Shown: positions 4,096-56,681 of the stretch, piece after piece
Position numbering within the stretch: the stretch's first letter is position 1
Layout of the letters: each line of letters begins with the position of its first letter
Assembly (NCBI RefSeq): GCF_000021945.1
Contig: NC_011831.1
Coordinates: 3,051,353 to 3,115,352 of the forward strand
Origin: Chloroflexus aggregans DSM 9485
GTDB lineage: Bacteria; Chloroflexota; Chloroflexia; Chloroflexales; Chloroflexaceae
Length of the DNA stretch: 64,000 bases
Direction: 5' to 3'
The notes under the pieces: generated by a model
Databases searched by the model: none
What the model was told of the DNA's origin: nothing
Seen by the model: the letters and a program-made list of their open reading frames with translations, nothing else
Translations under genes and position numbers: made by a program

Positions 4096-5880
4096 TCAAC
4101 TGCGGGTGCGGATTTCTTCAAGGGCGCGAGCCAAAAATGCCTCGACCGGCATCGCGCCAAGGTCGTCACCGGCGCGGGTGCGCACAGCAACTGCATCAGC
4201 AGATTCCTCTCTGGCGCCGATTATAAGCATATACGGTATCTTCTGCAACTGTGCCCGCCGGATCTTACCTTGCATCCGGTCACGGTTCTCGTCGAGTTCG
4301 ACACGCAAGCCGGCGGCAAACAGGCGTTGACGCACCTTGCGCGCATATTCCATCTGCTTGTCGGTAATGGGAATGATCACCGCTTGCACCGGTGCGAGCC
4401 AAAGCGGAAATGCACCGGCGTAGTGCTCGATGAGGATGCCCATAAACCGCTCGGTTGTTCCGGTGACGGCCCGGTGCAAGACGACCGGTGTGTGCGGTTT
4501 GTCGTCTTCGCCGATATATTCGCAGCCCAAGCGTGCCGGTTGGATGAAGTCGACCTGGATAGTGCTCAATTGCCATTCGCGCCCCAACACATCACGGGCC
4601 AGAAAATCGGCTTTGGGACCATAGAACGCTGCTTCGCCTTCGGCCTCAAAATACTCAACACCGTTAGCTTCAAGTGCAGCACGCAAGGCGGCCGTCGCCA
4701 GTTCCCACTTCTCATCATCTTGCACGTACTTGCCCTCCTTGCCGCGCAACGACAAGCGCACCTTGTAATCGGTAAACTTGTACGTTCCCAGCACCTCGCG
4801 GATCACTTGCAGGGCAAGACTAAACTCCTCTTGAATCTGATCGGGTCGGCAGAAAATATGGCAATCGTCTTGGGTCAATGCCCGCACGCGCGTCAACCCG
4901 CTCAACGCGCCGCTGTCTTCGTAACGGTAGAGTGTAGCAAACTCGGCAAAGCGCAGCGGTAGATCGCGATAACTGATCACGCCAAGCTGGTTGTAGAGCG
5001 TCATATGGCTCGGACAGTTCATCGGCTTGAGGCGAAAGATGAGGTCTTCGCTCTCAACCATCGGTGGGAACATACTATCGCGATAGTTATCGTAGTGCCC
5101 CGACTTCCGATAGAGCTGCTCCTTGACGACATTTCCTGTCCATACGTGCTGATACCCGTAGCGCGTTTGCACCTCACGCACAAATTTTTCCATTTCGTGG
5201 CGGATAATCTCGCCCTTCGGACTAAAGATCGGCAATCCGGGACCAATATCGTCTGAGAAGAAGAACAGCCCCAGCTCCTTACCGAGACGGCGATGGTCAC
5301 GTCGGCGGGACTCTTCCAAACGATGCAGATACGCTTCTAGCTCTTCTTTGGTATTCCAACCGGTACCGTAAATACGCTGCAATTGGCGATTTTTCTCATC
5401 GCCGCGCCAGTATGCCCCGGCGATGCTCATGAGCTTAAAGGCTTCGGGATTGATCTCGCCGGTATGGTTAAGGTGTGGGCCGCGACACAGATCCTCGAAC
5501 GTATCTTGACGGTAGGTTGAGATGACAGTGTCGCCGTGATGTGTCTCACCGTATTCGTCAAGCCCCTTCGCCAAACCCTCAATCAATTCGAGTTTGTAGG
5601 GCTGGTTGGCAAAGATTTGGCGGGCCTCTTCAGCAGTGACTTCACGATAGATAAACGGATGGTTGCCGGCAATAATCCGCTTCATCCGCTTTTCGATCTC
5701 GGTCAGATCTTCAGGGGTCAGCGGACGCGGCAGGTCGAAGTCGTAGTAAAAGCCATTTTCAATCGGTGGCCCGATGGCGATTTTGGCATCGGGAAAGATT
5801 TCGAGAACAGCTTGCGCCATCACATGCGCCAACGAGTGGCGGAGACGGTAATAGGGATCACTTTTTGGATCGACCGGCAT
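4096..5880 (-). CDS. thrS: Threonyl-tRNA synthetase lacking the N-terminal TGS domain
   Basis: The enzyme charges tRNA-Thr with threonine. The 594-residue chain begins directly at the N2 editing domain (RHSLAHVMAQAV gives the HxxxH pair at residues 15 and 19; FEDLCRGPHLNHTG supplies the Cys/His end of the same zinc-like editing site). The class II core follows with LKPMNCPSHMTLYN (zinc Cys), RYEDSGALSGLTRVR (motif 2) and TERFMGILIEHY (motif 3), then the anticodon-binding domain. Usual bacterial ThrRS is about 640 residues because of a TGS domain of some 60 residues; that is absent here and no in-frame extension encodes it. It follows the 5895-6473 gene by 14 nt and precedes the small membrane gene, forming an operon probably governed by the T-box at 7887-8148. 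Confidence 0.95.
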   Translation of the reverse strand: MPVDPKSDPYYRLRHSLAHVMAQAVLEIFPDAKIAIGPPIENGFYYDFDLPRPLTPEDLTEIEKRMKRIIAGNHPFIYREVTAEEARQIFANQPYKLELIEGLAKGLDEYGETHHGDTVISTYRQDTFEDLCRGPHLNHTGEINPEAFKLMSIAGAYWRGDEKNRQLQRIYGTGWNTKEELEAYLHRLEESRRRDHRRLGKELGLFFFSDDIGPGLPIFSPKGEIIRHEMEKFVREVQTRYGYQHVWTGNVVKEQLYRKSGHYDNYRDSMFPPMVESEDLIFRLKPMNCPSHMTLYNQLGVISYRDLPLRFAEFATLYRYEDSGALSGLTRVRALTQDDCHIFCRPDQIQEEFSLALQVIREVLGTYKFTDYKVRLSLRGKEGKYVQDDEKWELATAALRAALEANGVEYFEAEGEAAFYGPKADFLARDVLGREWQLSTIQVDFIQPARLGCEYIGEDDKPHTPVVLHRAVTGTTERFMGILIEHYAGAFPLWLAPVQAVIIPITDKQMEYARKVRQRLFAAGLRVELDENRDRMQGKIRRAQLQKIPYMLIIGAREESADAVAVRTRAGDDLGAMPVEAFLARALEEIRTRS

Positions 5881-5894
5881 AGAAGCATCTCCTG

Positions 5895-6473
5895 TTATCT
5901 GGTTACGATAGTTAACGTCCCGTTATCAACGTGGACGGCGACAATCTGGCGCCCTTGTCGAACAAATTCGGCATTCAGCCGTTCATTGAGCACCTCGGTC
6001 AGCTCTCGCACCGAGAGCATAGCCGCCAGTGGCCCTTCGAGCTGTGGATCGATCATGACCAATCTGCCATCCTGGACTGTGATACCACTACTGACGACGC
6101 TGGTCACCCCATACGCACGGACGCTGGCAATCACGCGGTCGGAGACCAGACGGACACTGACCGATTCGACCGGCAACGCTGCCTCGATCTCGTTGAGATA
6201 GCCGTTGATAGCGGCTTCACTTACGGTGATCGTGCCGTTGGGCAGGGCTGCGATCAGGGCGGGTACCGGTGCGATGGCGGTTTCACGCGATGGTACCAGC
6301 AGATCGGCAATACGATGGCCGATAGCCGCACTCAATTGGGGACGGGTCAGTAGCAGGGCAAGCCCGGCAATGACCAATAGCCCCACACTAAGACGGACCA
6401 ACTGACCAAAGCACCCGCTCGATTTGCGGTATCTTACCGGCAACTGATGGCCTCTCCCTCTCGTTCTTTTCAC
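5895..6473 (-). CDS. Membrane-anchored protein of unknown function, first gene of the thrS operon
   Basis: I place the start at the GTG at 6473 (VKRTRGRGHQLPVRYRKSSG), which has GAGGACGAGG just upstream. The only in-frame ATG, at 6659, lies in the 98-bp repeat array and would give a repeat-encoded N-terminus. The resulting 192-residue protein has a basic N-terminus, one transmembrane segment (about residues 27-44, QLVRLSVGLLVIAGLALLL) and an extracytoplasmic domain of about 145 residues rich in V, I and A with a segment NGTITVSEAAINGYLNEIE. This resembles LmeA/DUF2993-type or similar lipid-binding envelope proteins only loosely. I do not recognise the family. Confidence 0.6.
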   Translation of the reverse strand: MKRTRGRGHQLPVRYRKSSGCFGQLVRLSVGLLVIAGLALLLTRPQLSAAIGHRIADLLVPSRETAIAPVPALIAALPNGTITVSEAAINGYLNEIEAALPVESVSVRLVSDRVIASVRAYGVTSVVSSGITVQDGRLVMIDPQLEGPLAAMLSVRELTEVLNERLNAEFVRQGRQIVAVHVDNGTLTIVTR

Positions 6474-6519
6474 ACCTCGTCCTCGGTTGTTGTTACCCTC
6501 ACCCCAATCTTGCTCCAGT

Positions 6520-7873
6520 GGGGCACGGCATGCCGTGCCCCTACAGCCTTTGGTGGGGGCACGACGTGCCGTGCCCCTACGGGTGACGCTCTGTGCGTGA
6601 GGGACCTTCGCGCCCTCTGCGCCCTTTGCGTTAGCGTCCTTTGCCCTTCGTGTGGGCACGGCACCGCCGTGCCCCTACGGGTGACGCTCTGTGCGTGAGG
6701 TGCCTTCGCGCCCTCTGCGCCCTTTGCGTTAGCGTCCTTTGCCCTTCGTGTGGGCACGGCACCGCCGTGCCCCTACGGGTGACGCTCTGTGCGTGAGGGG
6801 CCTTCGCGCCCTCTGCGCCCTTTGCGTTAGCGTCCTTTGCCCTTCGTGTGGGCACGACGTGCCGTGCCCCTACGGGTGACGCTCTGTGCGTGAGGGGCCT
6901 TCGCGCCCTCTGCGCCCTTTGCGTTAGCGTCCTTTGCCCTTCGTGTGGGCACGGCACCGCCGTGCCCCTACGGGTGACGCTCTGTGCGTGAGGGGCCTTC
7001 GCGCCCTCTGCGCCCTTTGCGTTAGCGTCCTTTGCCCTTCGTGTGGGCACGGCACCGCCGTGCCCCTACGGGTGACGCTCTGTGCGTGAGGGGCCTTCGC
7101 GCCCTCTGCGCCCTTTGCGTTAGCGTCCTTTGCCCTTCGTGTGGGCACGGCACCGCCGTGCCCCTACGGGTGGCGCTCTGTGCGTGAGGGACCTTCGCGC
7201 CCTCTGCGCCCTTTGCGCTAGCGTCCTTTGCCCTTCGTGTGGGCACGGCACCGCCGTGCCCCTACGGGTGGCGCTCTGTGCGTGAGGGGCCTTCGCGCCC
7301 TCTGCGCCCTTTGCGCCCTTTGCGTCTTTGCGTTAACCCCTTTGCGCCTTTGCGTTAGCGTCCTTTGCCCTTCGTGTGGGCACGGCACCGCCGTGCCCCT
7401 ACGGGTGACGCTCTGTGCGTGAGGGGCCTTCGCGCCCTCTGCGCCCTTTGCGTTAGCGTCCTTTGCCCTTCGTGTGGGCACGGCACCGCCGTGCCCCTAC
7501 GGGTGACGCTCTGTGCGTGAGGGACCTTCGCGCCCTCTGCGCCCTTTGCGTTAGCGTCCTTTGCCCTGTGTGAGGGCACGGCACCGCCGTGCCCCTACGG
7601 GTGACGCTCTGTGCGTGAGGGACCTTCGCGCCCTCTGCGCCCTTTGCGTTAGCGTCCTTTGCCCTGTGTGAGGGCACGGCACCGCCGTGCCCCTACGGGT
7701 GACGCTCTGTGCGTGAGGGGCCTTCGCGCCCTCTGCGCCCTTTGCGTTAGCGTCCTTTGCCCTTCGTGTGGGCACGGCACCGCCGTGCCCCTACGGGTGA
7801 CGCTCTGTGCGTGAGAGGCCTTCGCGCCCTCTGCGCCCTTTGCGTCTTTGCGTTACGGTCTTTGCGTGAGCGT
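6520..7873. repeat. 98-bp tandem repeat array, about 13 units
   Basis: The unit carries the palindrome GGGCACGGC-ACC-GCCGTGCCC, then CCTACGGGTGACGCTCTG, TGCGTGAGG and a run of C-rich heptad-like words (GCGCCCTCTGCGCCCTTTGC, GTTAGCGTCCTTTGCCC). The landmark GGGTGACGCTCTG recurs near 6579, 6677, 6775, 6873, 6971, 7069, 7167, 7265, 7401, 7499, 7597, 7695 and 7793, so the step is 98 except one of 136 where a 38-bp internal expansion (7310-7350) sits. Units differ by a few bases, for example GGGTGGCGC in two. The first part (6520-6541) is a lone palindrome with a CAT centre. No unit has a credible ribosome-binding site. The array lies between the T-box and the first gene of the thrS operon. Confidence 0.95.
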
Positions 7874-7886
7874 CACCTAGGCCACT

Positions 7887-7924
7887 AACTCAAACAGCTC
7901 TCCGTCCGCACCGGGACGAAGAGC
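7887..7924 (-). terminator. T-box terminator stem
   Basis: On the minus strand GCTCTTCGTCC (7924-7914), loop CGGTGC, GGACGGAGAGC (7907-7897) form an 11-bp stem with one G-T wobble, followed by TGTTTGAGTT. Its left arm shares CGTCC with the antiterminator, so the two structures exclude each other, as in transcription-control T-boxes. The T-run is weak. Confidence 0.75.
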
Positions 7925-8148
7925 CGCTTCGTGGTTCCACCCTGTGTTCACGTCACACCGATACACGGCGTGACGCCTCATTGGTCGCGATAACGGGCGA
8001 ACCCGTGCTCCCTTACTGGCCGGTGGCGTTCTGGGAGCCGCTCAGAGGGGGTTTTCACCGGGTCCATCGCCAGGCGCGCTCTCAGTCGCGACGCGCCCTC
8101 CCTGTGGCCGGAAGCCGGTTACTCGTCCTCTTCAGCGCTTTATATATC
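7887..8148 (-). promoter_or_regulatory. T-box riboswitch leader, probably of the thrS operon
   Basis: Read on the minus strand, the leader shows the T-box landmarks in order: GAAGAGGACGAGTAA (8133-8119) at the foot of stem I; a distal hairpin GGCGCG/CGCGCC; the specifier side AGAACGCCACCGGCC (about 8032-8018); AGTAAGG then the hairpin CGGG-TTCG-CCCG followed by TTA (stem III region); and the T-box sequence AGGGTGGAACCACG (7943-7930), which pairs with CGTCCC to form the antiterminator. A terminator follows. T-box RNAs bind uncharged tRNA and allow readthrough when it accumulates. Two triplets sit in the specifier bulge: GCC (Ala, 8027-8025) and ACC (Thr, 8024-8022). Alignment with the usual GAAC-NNN-A pattern favours GCC, while the only downstream synthetase gene, thrS, favours ACC. 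Confidence 0.85.
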
Positions 8149-8154
8149 GCATAC

Positions 8155-8183
8155 ATGGTAGCGTGAAGTGCATGGTACGTCAA
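8155..8183 (-). promoter_or_regulatory. Promoter of the T-box leader
   Basis: On the minus strand TTGACG (8183-8178) and TACCAT (8160-8155) are 17 nt apart. The predicted start near 8148 is about 15 nt before the foot of stem I, as expected for a T-box leader. Confidence 0.6.
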
Positions 8184-8248
8184 ATAGTTTCTCTCCACCC
8201 TTCTGATCACATTCCCTTGCGCCATAGTCAGGGAGCTGCAACCCTTGT

Positions 8249-9037
8249 CTATGCGCCTACCGCGCTGTAGCGATATACCCCGTTCGTCCACAACCAGCGC
8301 AAGAGCAGGCCCAATAGCACGGCCCAGCCGATCTGATGCGCCAGACCCACTGCAATCGCCGGTGGATCGAGCCGGCCTAGCAGGAGTTCGAGCGGGAACG
8401 ACAGCATGGCGCGGAAGGGTAGCCATACCAGCACAGCCGTTACCGGCGGTGGCAGGAGATCAAGCGGAACGAGGTAACCGCTGCTAAACGCATACAAACC
8501 GAACCAAAAATCCTGCAATGCGAGGACCTGCGTCCACCAAAAACTGAGGACGCCGATGCAGCACTGGTTAAGAAAATAGACGGTGAAGGCCAAGACAATC
8601 GCGAGAGGTAAGATGGCCCAACTGAGTAGATCAGGACGAGGAATCGCGCCAGGTGCAATGAGTGATGCGATCAGGGCAATCGGTGCTACCATCGCCAAGC
8701 GGAGAGGTTTATCGGCCAGCGCCATCGCCAAATATCGCCACAGTGGGTGAATGGGTCGTAGCAGATGGGGTGATAACTCACCCAAGCGAATGTCGCGCTC
8801 CATATCCCAAATAATCCAGACTCCGGTCAATTGACGAATACAGAGCGCACCGACAAAGTAGGCGACGAAATCATCACTCGCGTAGCCACCGATGACACCA
8901 TCACCGGCTATAGTACGCCAGACGGCTAACATTATCAGCGGTAGCATACCGGTAACTACCCAGATGAACAGTTGGGCGCGATAGGCGAGCGCATCGGCCC
9001 ATGCGGCCCGCACAAGAGCGGCAAATTTGGCTGGCAT
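8249..9037 (-). CDS. ABC-2 type exporter permease (COG4587-like)
   Basis: The 262-residue protein has six hydrophobic segments and the layout of the ABC-2 permeases of the COG4587/COG3694 pair: a short cytoplasmic N-terminus with LVRAAWADALAYRAQLFIW, then MERDIRLGELSPHLLRPIHP between the second and third helices. These permeases work with an ATPase of the COG4586 type, which is exactly what the gene at 10305-11279 encodes, but on the other strand and beyond a glycosyltransferase. The second permease of the usual trio is not in the window. The start is the ATG at 9037, with a weak AAGGTC site upstream. The substrate is unknown. Confidence 0.8.
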   Translation of the reverse strand: MPAKFAALVRAAWADALAYRAQLFIWVVTGMLPLIMLAVWRTIAGDGVIGGYASDDFVAYFVGALCIRQLTGVWIIWDMERDIRLGELSPHLLRPIHPLWRYLAMALADKPLRLAMVAPIALIASLIAPGAIPRPDLLSWAILPLAIVLAFTVYFLNQCCIGVLSFWWTQVLALQDFWFGLYAFSSGYLVPLDLLPPPVTAVLVWLPFRAMLSFPLELLLGRLDPPAIAVGLAHQIGWAVLLGLLLRWLWTNGVYRYSAVGA

Positions 9038-51449: not shown

Positions 51450-52642
51450 CGTCCCTCCTAACTGACGAATGTGCTATGGCTGCCGGTTCGATCATATTGC
51501 GTGCATGCTTCTATTGTACACCGGAGTCGACCATCACCGAGCGGGCCAAGGCGAGGGCACTGCCCGAATGGGCGCCGGCGGTGCGGGCAGGGGGTGTGGC
51601 TCAGGGCGAGGGGCATCATCAATCATCGAGCGGGCCAAGGCGAGGGCACTGCCCGAATGGGTGCCGGCGGTGCGGGCTGGGGGTGTGGTTAAGGGCGAGG
51701 GGCATCATCAATTATCGAGCGGGCCAAGGCGAGGGCACTGCCCGAATGGGTGCCGGCGGTGCGGGCTGGGGGTGTGGCTCAGGGCGAGGGGCATCATCAA
51801 TCATCGAGCGGGCCAAGGCGAGGGCACTGCCCGAATGGGTGCCGGCGGTGCGGAGGGCGGCGGCGCAGGCGGCGAGGGTTGCGCCGGTGGTGAGGACGTC
51901 GTCGATGAGGATGATACGGGGCGGCGGTGGTGTCGGCCCGACCCAGACGAATGCTCCGGCGACGTTGGCGGTGCGGGCTGGGGTGTGGTTAAGGGCGAGG
52001 GGCATCATCAATCATCGAGCGGGCCAAGGCGAGGGCACTGACCGCGTGGGCGCCGGCGGTGCGGGCTGGGGGTGTGGCTCAGGGCGAGGGGCATCATCAA
52101 TCATCGAGCGGGCCAAGGCGAGGGCACTGCCCGAATGGGTGCCGGCGGTGCGGGCTGGGGGTGTGGCTCAGGGCGAGGGGCATCATCAATCATCGAGCGG
52201 GCCAAGGCGAGGGCACTGCCCGAATGGGTGCCGGCGGTGCGGGCTGGGGTGTGGTTAAGGGCGAGGGGCATCATCAATCATCGAGCGGGCCAAGGCGAGG
52301 GCACTGCCCGAATGGGTGCCGGCGGTGCGGAGGGCGGCGGCGCAGGCGGCGAGGGTTGCGCCGGTGGTGAGGACGTCGTCGATGAGGATGATACGGGGCG
52401 GCGGTGGTGTCGGCCCGACCCAGACGAATGCTCCGGCGACGTTGGCGGTGCGGGCTGGGGTGTGGTTAAGGGCGAGGGGCATCATCAATCATCGAGCGGG
52501 CCAAGGCGAGGGCACTGCCCGAATGGGCGCCGGCGGTGCGGGCTGGGGGTGTGGTTAAGGGCGAGGGGCATCATCAATTATCGAGCGGGCCAAGGCGAGG
52601 GCACTGACCGCGTGGGCGCCGGCGGTGCGGGCTGGGGTGTGG
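51450..52642. other. No functional gene: mutase upstream region and comF-derived repeats
   Basis: From 51450 to about 51532 lies the upstream region of the mutase gene. From 51533 the DNA is a nested tandem array derived from the 3' end of comF (see the repeat entry). Long open frames on the + strand are a by-product of the GC-rich repeats. Confidence 0.8.
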
Positions 52643-52670
52643 TTAAGGGCGAGGGGCATCATCAATCACC
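51533..52670. repeat. Nested tandem array of comF 3'-end duplications
   Basis: The landmark GAGCGGGCCAAGGCGAGGGC (reverse of the comF end) starts at 51539, 51628, 51717, 51806, 52017, 52106, 52195, 52283, 52494, 52583 and, in comF itself, at 52671. Steps are 88-89 bp (short) or 211 bp (long), in the order SSS-L-SSS-L-SS-gene, so a block of about 477 bp also repeats. Long units contain the PRPP-binding core of comF (minus strand RIILIDDVLTTGATLAAC), about 123 bp flanked by the direct repeat GGCGGTGCGG; short units look like long ones with that core removed at the repeat. Units end in TTAA (comF stop) or CTCA. Confidence 0.9.
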
Positions 52671-53266
52671 GAGCGGGCCAGAGCGAGGGCCCTGACCGCG
52701 TGGGCGCCGGCGGTGCGGAGGGCGGCGGCGCAGGCGGCGAGGGTTGCGCCGGTGGTGAGGACGTCGTCGATGAGGATGATACGGGGCGGCGGTGGTGTCG
52801 ACCCGACCCAGACGAATGCTCCGGCGACGTTGGCGGTGCGGGCTGGGGCTTCCAGCCGGGCTTGTTGGTTGGTGGCGCGCACGCGGGCAAGGCCGTCGAT
52901 TAGTGGTGGTGCGCCGGGACGTTGGAGCCGAGCCGCTAATTCGGCGGCCTGGTTGAAGCCACGTTCGCGCAGCCGAGTCGGGTGCAGCGGCACGGCAATG
53001 AGGGCATCGGCGTCGAGCGGGCCGGCGGCGGCGGCGAGGAGATCGCCGAGCGGACGCGCGATTCGCCGGCGATGACCGTATTTGAGCCGATGTATCGCGT
53101 GAGCGAGGCCGCCTTCGTAACGGAATGCTACCCGTGCCGCAGTTAAGCCGGTTGGCGGCGGGAATGGTGGGTAGGGTCGTAGAAGAGCGCGACAATTGGC
53201 GCAGAATAGCTCTCCGGTGAGACGACCGCATCCGGCACAGTAGTCTGGAAACAACCATCCAATCAT
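52643..53266 (-). CDS. comF: ComF-family phosphoribosyltransferase
   Basis: The 207-residue protein has the N-terminal zinc ribbon (DYCAGCGRLTGELFCANC, four Cys) and a type I phosphoribosyltransferase domain: IAVPLHPTRLRERGFNQA and the PRPP loop RIILIDDVLTTGATLAAC. Members take part in DNA uptake (ComFC of competence) or in nucleotide handling (GntX). The start is the ATG at 53266 and the stop is the TAA at 52645-52643. Its last 65 or so codons have been duplicated many times downstream (51533-52642). No other competence gene is adjacent, but a ComEA-like gene lies 2.5 kb away at 55785. Confidence 0.9.
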   Translation of the reverse strand: MIGWLFPDYCAGCGRLTGELFCANCRALLRPYPPFPPPTGLTAARVAFRYEGGLAHAIHRLKYGHRRRIARPLGDLLAAAAGPLDADALIAVPLHPTRLRERGFNQAAELAARLQRPGAPPLIDGLARVRATNQQARLEAPARTANVAGAFVWVGSTPPPPRIILIDDVLTTGATLAACAAALRTAGAHAVRALALARSVIDDAPRP

Positions 53267-55784: not shown

Positions 55785-56681
55785 ATGTGGCGGAAGTTGT
55801 TATTTGTTGTTCTCCTAGTTGGAATTGGGTATCTGATCTGGCGCCGTATGCAAAGCGGTACCGAGGCATTGCCTTCGTTTGCACCGCCGCCCGGTAAACC
55901 GGCGACGCCGCAATCAACGCTGCCGACTTCCTCTTCGGCAGAAGGTGGGCCGCGTCCGGTGGTGACGCGGGTGCATCGTGGTGCGCCGCCGCCACCGACA
56001 CCAACGAGTGCTGCTCCTAGTGGTACCTCTACGAGTGGGCCGCGTCCGGTGGTGACGCGGGTGCATCGTGGTGCGCCGCCAGAGCCTCGTCGTCGCCCGA
56101 TGTCGACTGGTGAGACGATGGTTAATCGGAACGGTACCGGTGAGTCTTCGTCCGATCAGGTCTCATCTGCACCGGTTTTGTCTGAGGTGTCTCCGCCTCT
56201 GTCAGAGGTGCCGTCATCCGCTACTCTAGTAACTCAAGTACGCGAACCCGAGGCTGCGGTGCCGAGTGCGCCGGCGGCAAGCGCAGCGGCAGTACGCGAA
56301 CCCGAGGCTGCGGTGCCGAGTGCGCCGGCGGCAAGCGCAGCGGCAGTACGCGAACCCGAGGCTGCGGTGCCGAGTGCGCCGGCGGCAAGCGCAGCGGCAG
56401 CCGCTCCGGCGACTCCTGATACGAGGAGCGAGGAAGAAGAGATCGCTGCGTTAATCGAAGCTTCAGCGGCAGTAGAGTTCGTACCGGTTGATATTAATCG
56501 CGCCGACCGCGCCACGCTCATAACGTTACCCGGTATCGGGCCGGTACTGGCCGATCGAATCATCGCATATCGTGAAGCTCACGGCCCGTTTAAAAGTGTT
56601 GATGATCTGATAGCTGTGTCAGGCATTGGTGAACGTAATATTAACGCCTTCCGCAAGCTCGTCTACGTTACGCATGACTGA
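55785..56681 (+). CDS. ComEA-like DNA-binding protein with membrane anchor and repeat linker
   Basis: From ATG 55785 (MWRKLLFVVLLVGIGYLIWR, GGGGAG upstream) the 298-residue protein has one transmembrane helix, a long low-complexity linker and a C-terminal helix-hairpin-helix domain (VDINRADRATLITLPGIGPV and VSGIGERNINAFRKLVYV). ComEA binds incoming DNA at the outer face in natural transformation. The linker holds two copies of GPRPVVTRVHRGAPP and three copies of an 18-residue block starting VREPEAAVPSAP. The last 8 bases overlap the next gene (ATGACTGA). Without the competence channel genes nearby, a role in uptake is inferred. Confidence 0.8.
   Translation: MWRKLLFVVLLVGIGYLIWRRMQSGTEALPSFAPPPGKPATPQSTLPTSSSAEGGPRPVVTRVHRGAPPPPTPTSAAPSGTSTSGPRPVVTRVHRGAPPEPRRRPMSTGETMVNRNGTGESSSDQVSSAPVLSEVSPPLSEVPSSATLVTQVREPEAAVPSAPAASAAAVREPEAAVPSAPAASAAAVREPEAAVPSAPAASAAAAAPATPDTRSEEEEIAALIEASAAVEFVPVDINRADRATLITLPGIGPVLADRIIAYREAHGPFKSVDDLIAVSGIGERNINAFRKLVYVTHD
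56238..56399 (+). repeat. Three perfect 54-bp in-frame repeats in the ComEA-like gene
   Basis: Units start at 56238, 56292 and 56346 and each encodes 18 residues, VREPEAAVPSAPAASAAA. They appear identical at DNA level, which suggests recent expansion and a linker that can vary in length. Confidence 0.9.

Follow-up and report, generated by a model that had tools for sequence, protein, structure and literature searches.

The threonyl-tRNA synthetase gene thrS of Chloroflexus aggregans DSM 9485 (594 aa; 4096-5880 on the minus strand, with its ATG at 5880) lies in the 64-kb stretch of DNA analysed here (bases 3,051,353-3,115,352 of the genome), which we term the window. It is preceded by a gene of 192 aa (5895-6473, minus strand) that has no Pfam family over the cut-off and for which a similar gene, as judged by eye, lies behind the T-box in the congeners. 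The first-pass annotation put the first start codon of the operon at 6473, where there is indeed a GTG. The order on the minus strand is a T-box leader, a tandem repeat array, the 192-aa gene and thrS, with 44 nt between the array and the GTG; if the array is read through, the leader from the promoter at 8183-8155 to this first start codon would be about 1.67 kb long.

The T-box had been proposed as complete, and an Rfam search finds it as RF00230 at 8144-7909 on the minus strand (93.5 bits, E 3.7e-19), which is only 0.5 bit above the gathering cut-off of 93 and is the sole gathering-threshold Rfam match within the window. In the Rfam alignment, the specifier loop reads GAA-A-ACC (GAA, one base, codon), so that the specifier is ACC (8050-8052, minus strand), a threonine codon. 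This agrees with the downstream synthetase gene, and GAAAACC is present in the alignments of all eight genomes of the genus; together, the Rfam match and the alignment of relatives make this a T-box of the threonine type. The T-box motif, AGGGTGGAACCACG, is at 7943-7930, where it had been placed, and contains UGGA (7936-7939, minus strand). Three tRNA-Thr (GGT, TGT and CGT) occur among the 30 of the genome's 47 tRNA matches that were fetched, and all three have the complementary end, UCCA. The promoter (TTGACG-N17-TACCAT; 8155-8183, minus strand), also as annotated, is the one sigma-70-like site that the scan gives for 5800-8400, where shuffles lead one to expect 0.3; its TTGAC and TACCAT are retained in 8/8 genus genomes. 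There is no second sigma-70-like site immediately ahead of the genes (6520-6473), a place where a promoter serving them had been considered. The terminator, annotated at 7924-7897, stands as a hairpin: the structure at 7929-7892 (minus strand) folds at -27 kcal/mol (z -4.8) and beats all 200 shuffles. It stands less firmly as a terminator, since its tail, UGUUUGAGUU, is a weak U tract and the terminator pattern scan lists no site there. Help may therefore be needed for termination.

This leader has the parts of a known thrS T-box of the RF00230 family, namely a Stem I with ACC, the AGUA/GAA loop bases, UGGA, an antiterminator/terminator region and an aminoacyl-tRNA synthetase operon downstream. 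It differs in how far thrS lies from the end of the T-box match: 2,028 nt here versus 44-1,082 nt in 26 other genomes, the gap being long because the repeat cluster is inserted in it. T-boxes as such were reported in Chloroflexi in 2008, with an ileS and two trp cases in Dehalococcoides (PMC2494555). The genome has three other T-box matches, which precede genes named by eye as trpE, ileS and glyS; each of these T-boxes overlaps or directly precedes its ORF and so leaves no room for an array, which argues against the array as a general T-box feature.

The comparison within the genus used seven congeners (G001-G007), giving eight genomes with this one. A T-box match precedes thrS in all eight; it exceeds the gathering cut-off in this genome and in G001 and falls below it in the others, and three of the eight have no T-box match over the cut-off. 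Among more distant relatives, Rfam was run on 21 of 33 (one of the remainder, with a contig that begins inside thrS, was omitted, and 11 were without a fetched locus), and 19 of these 21 have a T-box at the thrS locus with an E of 0.01 or better, the two without being L011 and L026. The thrS loci from a separate contig scan, mostly of distant phyla, were left out of the comparison. An alignment of the T-box of this genome with those of 10 relatives contains at least one compensatory change in 27 of 68 predicted pairs. Two adjacent pairs in the stem before the T-box motif are privately changed on both sides in this genome, to U-A and C-G where the congeners have mainly C-G and A-U, so that the helix is retained; this genome alone has also lost one pair of the consensus fold (C-C at columns 31/86). 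The fold of the switch has thus been kept on the lineage that carries the array, although the array may be younger than these changes.

The array itself extends from 7874 to 6518 (minus strand), inside the leader, between the T-box terminator and the first start codon, as the first-pass annotation had it. The estimate of about 13 units of 98 bp in 1.35 kb also proved close: the span, with junctions placed by eye, is 1,357 bp, and a count of GTAGGGGCACGGC anchors gives 14, which delimit twelve full periods (ten of 98 bp, one of 97 bp and one of 137 bp, the last beginning at 7402). For 6568-7315 and 7338-7845, TRF independently reports a period of 98 bp at 97% matches. One partial unit lies ahead of the anchors at the start of the array, and a 36-bp step leads to the closing palindrome at its end. 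The units are head to tail, and 11 of the 12 full ones contain the palindrome GTAG-GGGCACGGC-GGT-GCCGTGCCC, a variant of which occupies the remaining full unit and the 13th copy, while the 14th palindrome has an AT loop. GTAG is on the same side in 14/14. The eleven comparable units have a mean identity of 97.4%, and the closest other array averages 83% to them. The RNA of a unit folds at -45 kcal/mol (z -3.1). The array RNA is rich in G: the share of 78-nt windows with more C than G is 16%, compared with 36% for the T-box, 30% for the 192-aa gene and 37% for thrS.

Several other identities for the array were considered and rejected. It is not a CRISPR, since its units are 97% alike and there are no unique spacers, and it is not coding, since its three sense frames contain 9, 9 and 10 stops; an ORF of 254 aa from 6659 is the array running into the 192-aa gene, and the congeners have no array there. 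Nor is it a series of intrinsic terminators: U tracts are absent by eye and the terminator scan finds none, so the palindromes should not terminate transcription alone. An Rfam match to mir-9229 at 6520-6578 is far under its cut-off. Two other tandem arrays were noted in the window. One, at 51533-52848, is long, with a period of about 89 bp and higher-order periods of 300, 388 and 477 bp, and is unlike the thrS array in unit sequence, as judged by eye. The other, at 56237-56400, consists of three perfect copies of a 54-bp unit, a period that is a multiple of three and that therefore possibly corresponds to in-frame protein repeats.

The array is absent from the leaders of all seven congeners and from 19 other T-box leaders (0/26), and neither the GTAGGGGCACGGC anchor nor GCAAAGG is found in the stretches from T-box to thrS of these 26 relatives. 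The sequence of the congeners is shared with this genome down to about 7886. In them, some 30-180 nt lie between the same hairpin and the start of the first gene, with AAGGAG ahead of the start in 5/7; in G002, where this gap is longest (L004), about 150 nt of unrelated sequence, including eight consecutive T, are inserted between the T-box and the first gene. In a thrS tree, this genome is nested among array-free genomes (support is 0.90 for the node that unites it with four congeners and 0.39 for another node), so the simplest history is that the array was gained once, on this branch. With the array missing in 7/7 congeners, it is not a conserved part of the leader; among the genomes compared, and as judged from their sequences, it is a gain of this species.

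Where did the array come from? The first-pass annotation had suggested that it may be an expansion inside a regulated leader. As an expansion of part of the leader itself this fails, for the array is one of at least 50 dispersed blocks of the same type and is missing from the congeners. A 401-base piece of it matches its own genome at least 116 times, counting itself, and a single unit has at least 179 matches, as against 1-19 weaker ones in each congener. The palindrome as a pattern has 131 matches in this genome when both strands are counted, so that symmetric copies are counted twice. At the level of the order, 12 of 60 genomes contain it (57 matches in G003); at that of the phylum, 14 of 301 genomes contain the ACGCAAAG part of the unit. 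The blocks, at least 50 in number and five of them shorter than 90 bp, were found in 38 stretches, namely the window and 37 stretches chosen for their matches. Such numbers mean that the repeat is not special to thrS. Unit length varies among arrays. Of the 12 other arrays with at least two units of 60-160 bp (mean identities within arrays of 0.64-0.99), 11 are more alike within than to the thrS array, the exception being L153 with two units. This comparison of sequences points to local amplification of a founder, rather than repeated insertion, as the favoured origin of the arrays.

The places where these blocks sit were then compared, using crude codon-based gene calls, for the 44 blocks of at least 90 bp outside the window. 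Of these, 23 lie between tandem genes, 9 between convergent and 6 between divergent genes, and 6 are unclear. With the divergent and unclear cases set aside, 32 blocks have a neighbouring stop codon, and the expectation was obtained by moving each array to random positions within its gap. The stop codon is within 10 nt of the block, or overlaps it, in 21/32 cases versus 11.2 expected, a number reached in none of 20,000 simulations; it is within 30 nt in 24/32 versus 17.8 expected. In the tandem gaps, the array is nearer to the upstream stop in 16/23 (p 0.09), or in 9/13 when more than 60 nt are free (p 0.27). Since this bias is not significant, the preference for gene 3' ends rests on the distance-to-stop test, with its crude gene calls. 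The stop codon itself is the TAG of GTAG in two blocks and the TAA of TTAACGCAAAG in three. In 11 of the 23 tandem cases the next called start is at most 50 nt from the array or overlaps it, which suggests that arrays of this kind may often be read through in this genome.

Between the T-box hairpin and the start of the thrS array there are 17 nt, which puts the array past the 3' end that the leader RNA has when it is terminated. Its location thus fits the habit of the repeat family, the exception being the regulated operon that lies beyond it. Two other blocks may be mentioned here. One (L143; genome position 343475), classed as divergent, begins about 40 nt behind a tRNA-Gly gene, an RNA 3' end without a stop codon. 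Another (L154, 2938-3362; genome positions 2615437-2615861) is a REP-type array that follows, after about 20 nt, the stop codon of a gene read as trpE; this trpE is itself behind a T-box, the order there being switch, gene, array.

The features of the repeat are those of the GTAG-tagged REPs. In the part of their account used here, Di Nocera et al. (2013; PMC3733652) describe these REPs as having stems of 6-13 bp and loops often of 2-3 bp, with Chloroflexi among the hosts, and describe large clusters as tandem reiterations of the REP with flanking DNA, near gene 3' ends and often supplying TAG stops. Here, likewise, an unpaired GTAG accompanies a 9-bp stem, GGGCACGGC/GCCGTGCCC, and a 3-nt loop; there are more than 100 matches, dispersed, in tandem with flanking DNA and close to gene 3' ends; most blocks have their own type of unit and often abut stop codons; and in the two blocks mentioned above GTAG provides the TAG. 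There are also differences from what that part of the account describes: all units here are head to tail, whereas such dimers are given there as absent or under-represented in most genomes; the cluster here occupies a 5' leader behind an attenuator; and no RAYT gene flanked by the REP, which is a frequent though not obligatory companion, is found here. In the 16 places with a Y1_Tnp match, GTAGGGGCACGGC with fewer than two mismatches does not occur within about 1.5 kb on each side; two single matches with two mismatches occur, in L224 and L220, and by eye the former is not a palindrome. Two ORFs at Y1 transposase places are RAYT-like by eye. One place (L225, 1444-1803, minus strand) has a RAYT-like fragment with a translation that contains GAGLKPAPT, a peptide characteristic of GTAG REPs that are translated within genes.

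Another class of palindrome cluster, the BIME, also lies in intergenic DNA. However, BIMEs alternate in orientation, at least as outlined in the part of PMC2817692 drawn on here, and the units here do not: with the orientation of GTAG constant in 14/14 palindromes, a BIME can be rejected. From its sequence, and by the published description of the family, the array is most likely a head-to-tail cluster of GTAG-tagged REPs.

How, then, is the operon expressed? In the T-box family it is established that a low level of charged tRNA leads to tRNA pairing and so to antitermination. We consider it probable that an ordinary tRNA-Thr T-box drives the operon of the 192-aa gene and thrS, and that a GTAG-REP cluster has amplified behind its terminator and is tolerated. 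A GTAG-tagged REP, with neighbouring ACGCAAAG-rich DNA, would have arrived about 17 nt behind the terminator hairpin on the lineage of this species, and this founder would have been amplified in place to give a head-to-tail cluster of 12-13 units. By analogy with other T-boxes, uncharged tRNA-Thr would pair with ACC and UGGA, so that the terminator does not form, and the polymerase from the 8183-8155 promoter would then cross 1.36 kb of untranslated cluster before transcribing both genes. The cluster would most likely be a passenger. We infer the function of the T-box in vivo, read-through and the neutrality of the cluster. Since there is no second sigma-70-like promoter, the genes can be reached only via the cluster, barring a promoter of an unrecognised kind.

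Such a promoter is the basis of the first alternative, in which the operon is uncoupled: thrS is driven from a promoter within the array or beyond it, and all that the T-box yields is a short terminated RNA. The GTG is only 44 nt from the array, the scan covers sigma-70-like promoters alone, and arrays precede co-directional genes elsewhere (the 11/23 tandem cases above), so that hidden promoters in arrays are conceivable. However, the T-box promoter is the sole sigma-70-like site in 5800-8400, and the T-box has kept its specifier, its UGGA and its promoter and shows two private compensatory pairs in its fold, which makes uncoupling unlikely.

A second alternative is that the array is a functional layer between the T-box and thrS, acting as a copy-number-dependent attenuator, a delay line or a Rho checkpoint. 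A stretch of 1,357 bp that has stops in every sense frame and units that fold strongly might act in this way, and tandem arrays are expected to change in copy number. The first-pass annotation had likewise suggested that thrS output could change with copy number; the single assembly of the species speaks neither for nor against this. The genome has two Rho genes over the TIGR00767 cut-off (4406935-4408185 and 1680476-1681570), and Rho could act on 1.36 kb of RNA that is not translated. However, with C exceeding G in so few of its windows, the G-rich RNA of the array is not rut-like and the array is not an obvious Rho site; moreover, the same kind of repeat is present in at least 50 blocks and the relatives lack the array. 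We regard this second layer as quite improbable, and equally doubtful is its more specific form, the recruitment of the REP cluster as a copy-number-adjustable second stage of thrS attenuation, such as a Rho or pausing checkpoint that sets the read-through reaching thrS.

Finally, an array length due to an assembly error is very improbable: near-identical 98-bp units are hard to assemble and one assembly of the species was compared, but the genome is a single contig of 4,684,931 bases and unit variants are spread along the array. The presence of the array is certain, its exact copy number perhaps less so.

The T-box and the REP cluster are each of a known kind; their combination is a new arrangement. 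In the literature covered, which leaves out most subscription papers, we met no description of a REP cluster placed between an attenuator and the genes it serves. Titles on a T-box riboswitch with a tandem repeat, or on a REP with a riboswitch leader, include none on such an arrangement, a title that combines T-box and Chloroflexus concerns riboflavin transporters, and in the same literature we did not meet the letters of the ACGCAAAG repeat or anything on Chloroflexus REPs in intergenic DNA. In the main text of a metatranscriptome study of C. aggregans (PMC8004040), the part of that source considered here, neither 'threonyl' nor 'tRNA' occurs.

If transcription crosses the cluster, the locus would be a natural test of the distance over which a tRNA-sensing attenuator can still control its genes, for which the seven array-free congeners would be the controls. 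If read-through fails, an essential synthetase operon would have been rewired by a repeat. More generally, REP-type repeats may settle behind the 3' ends of RNAs, including those made by attenuators, and not behind stop codons alone.
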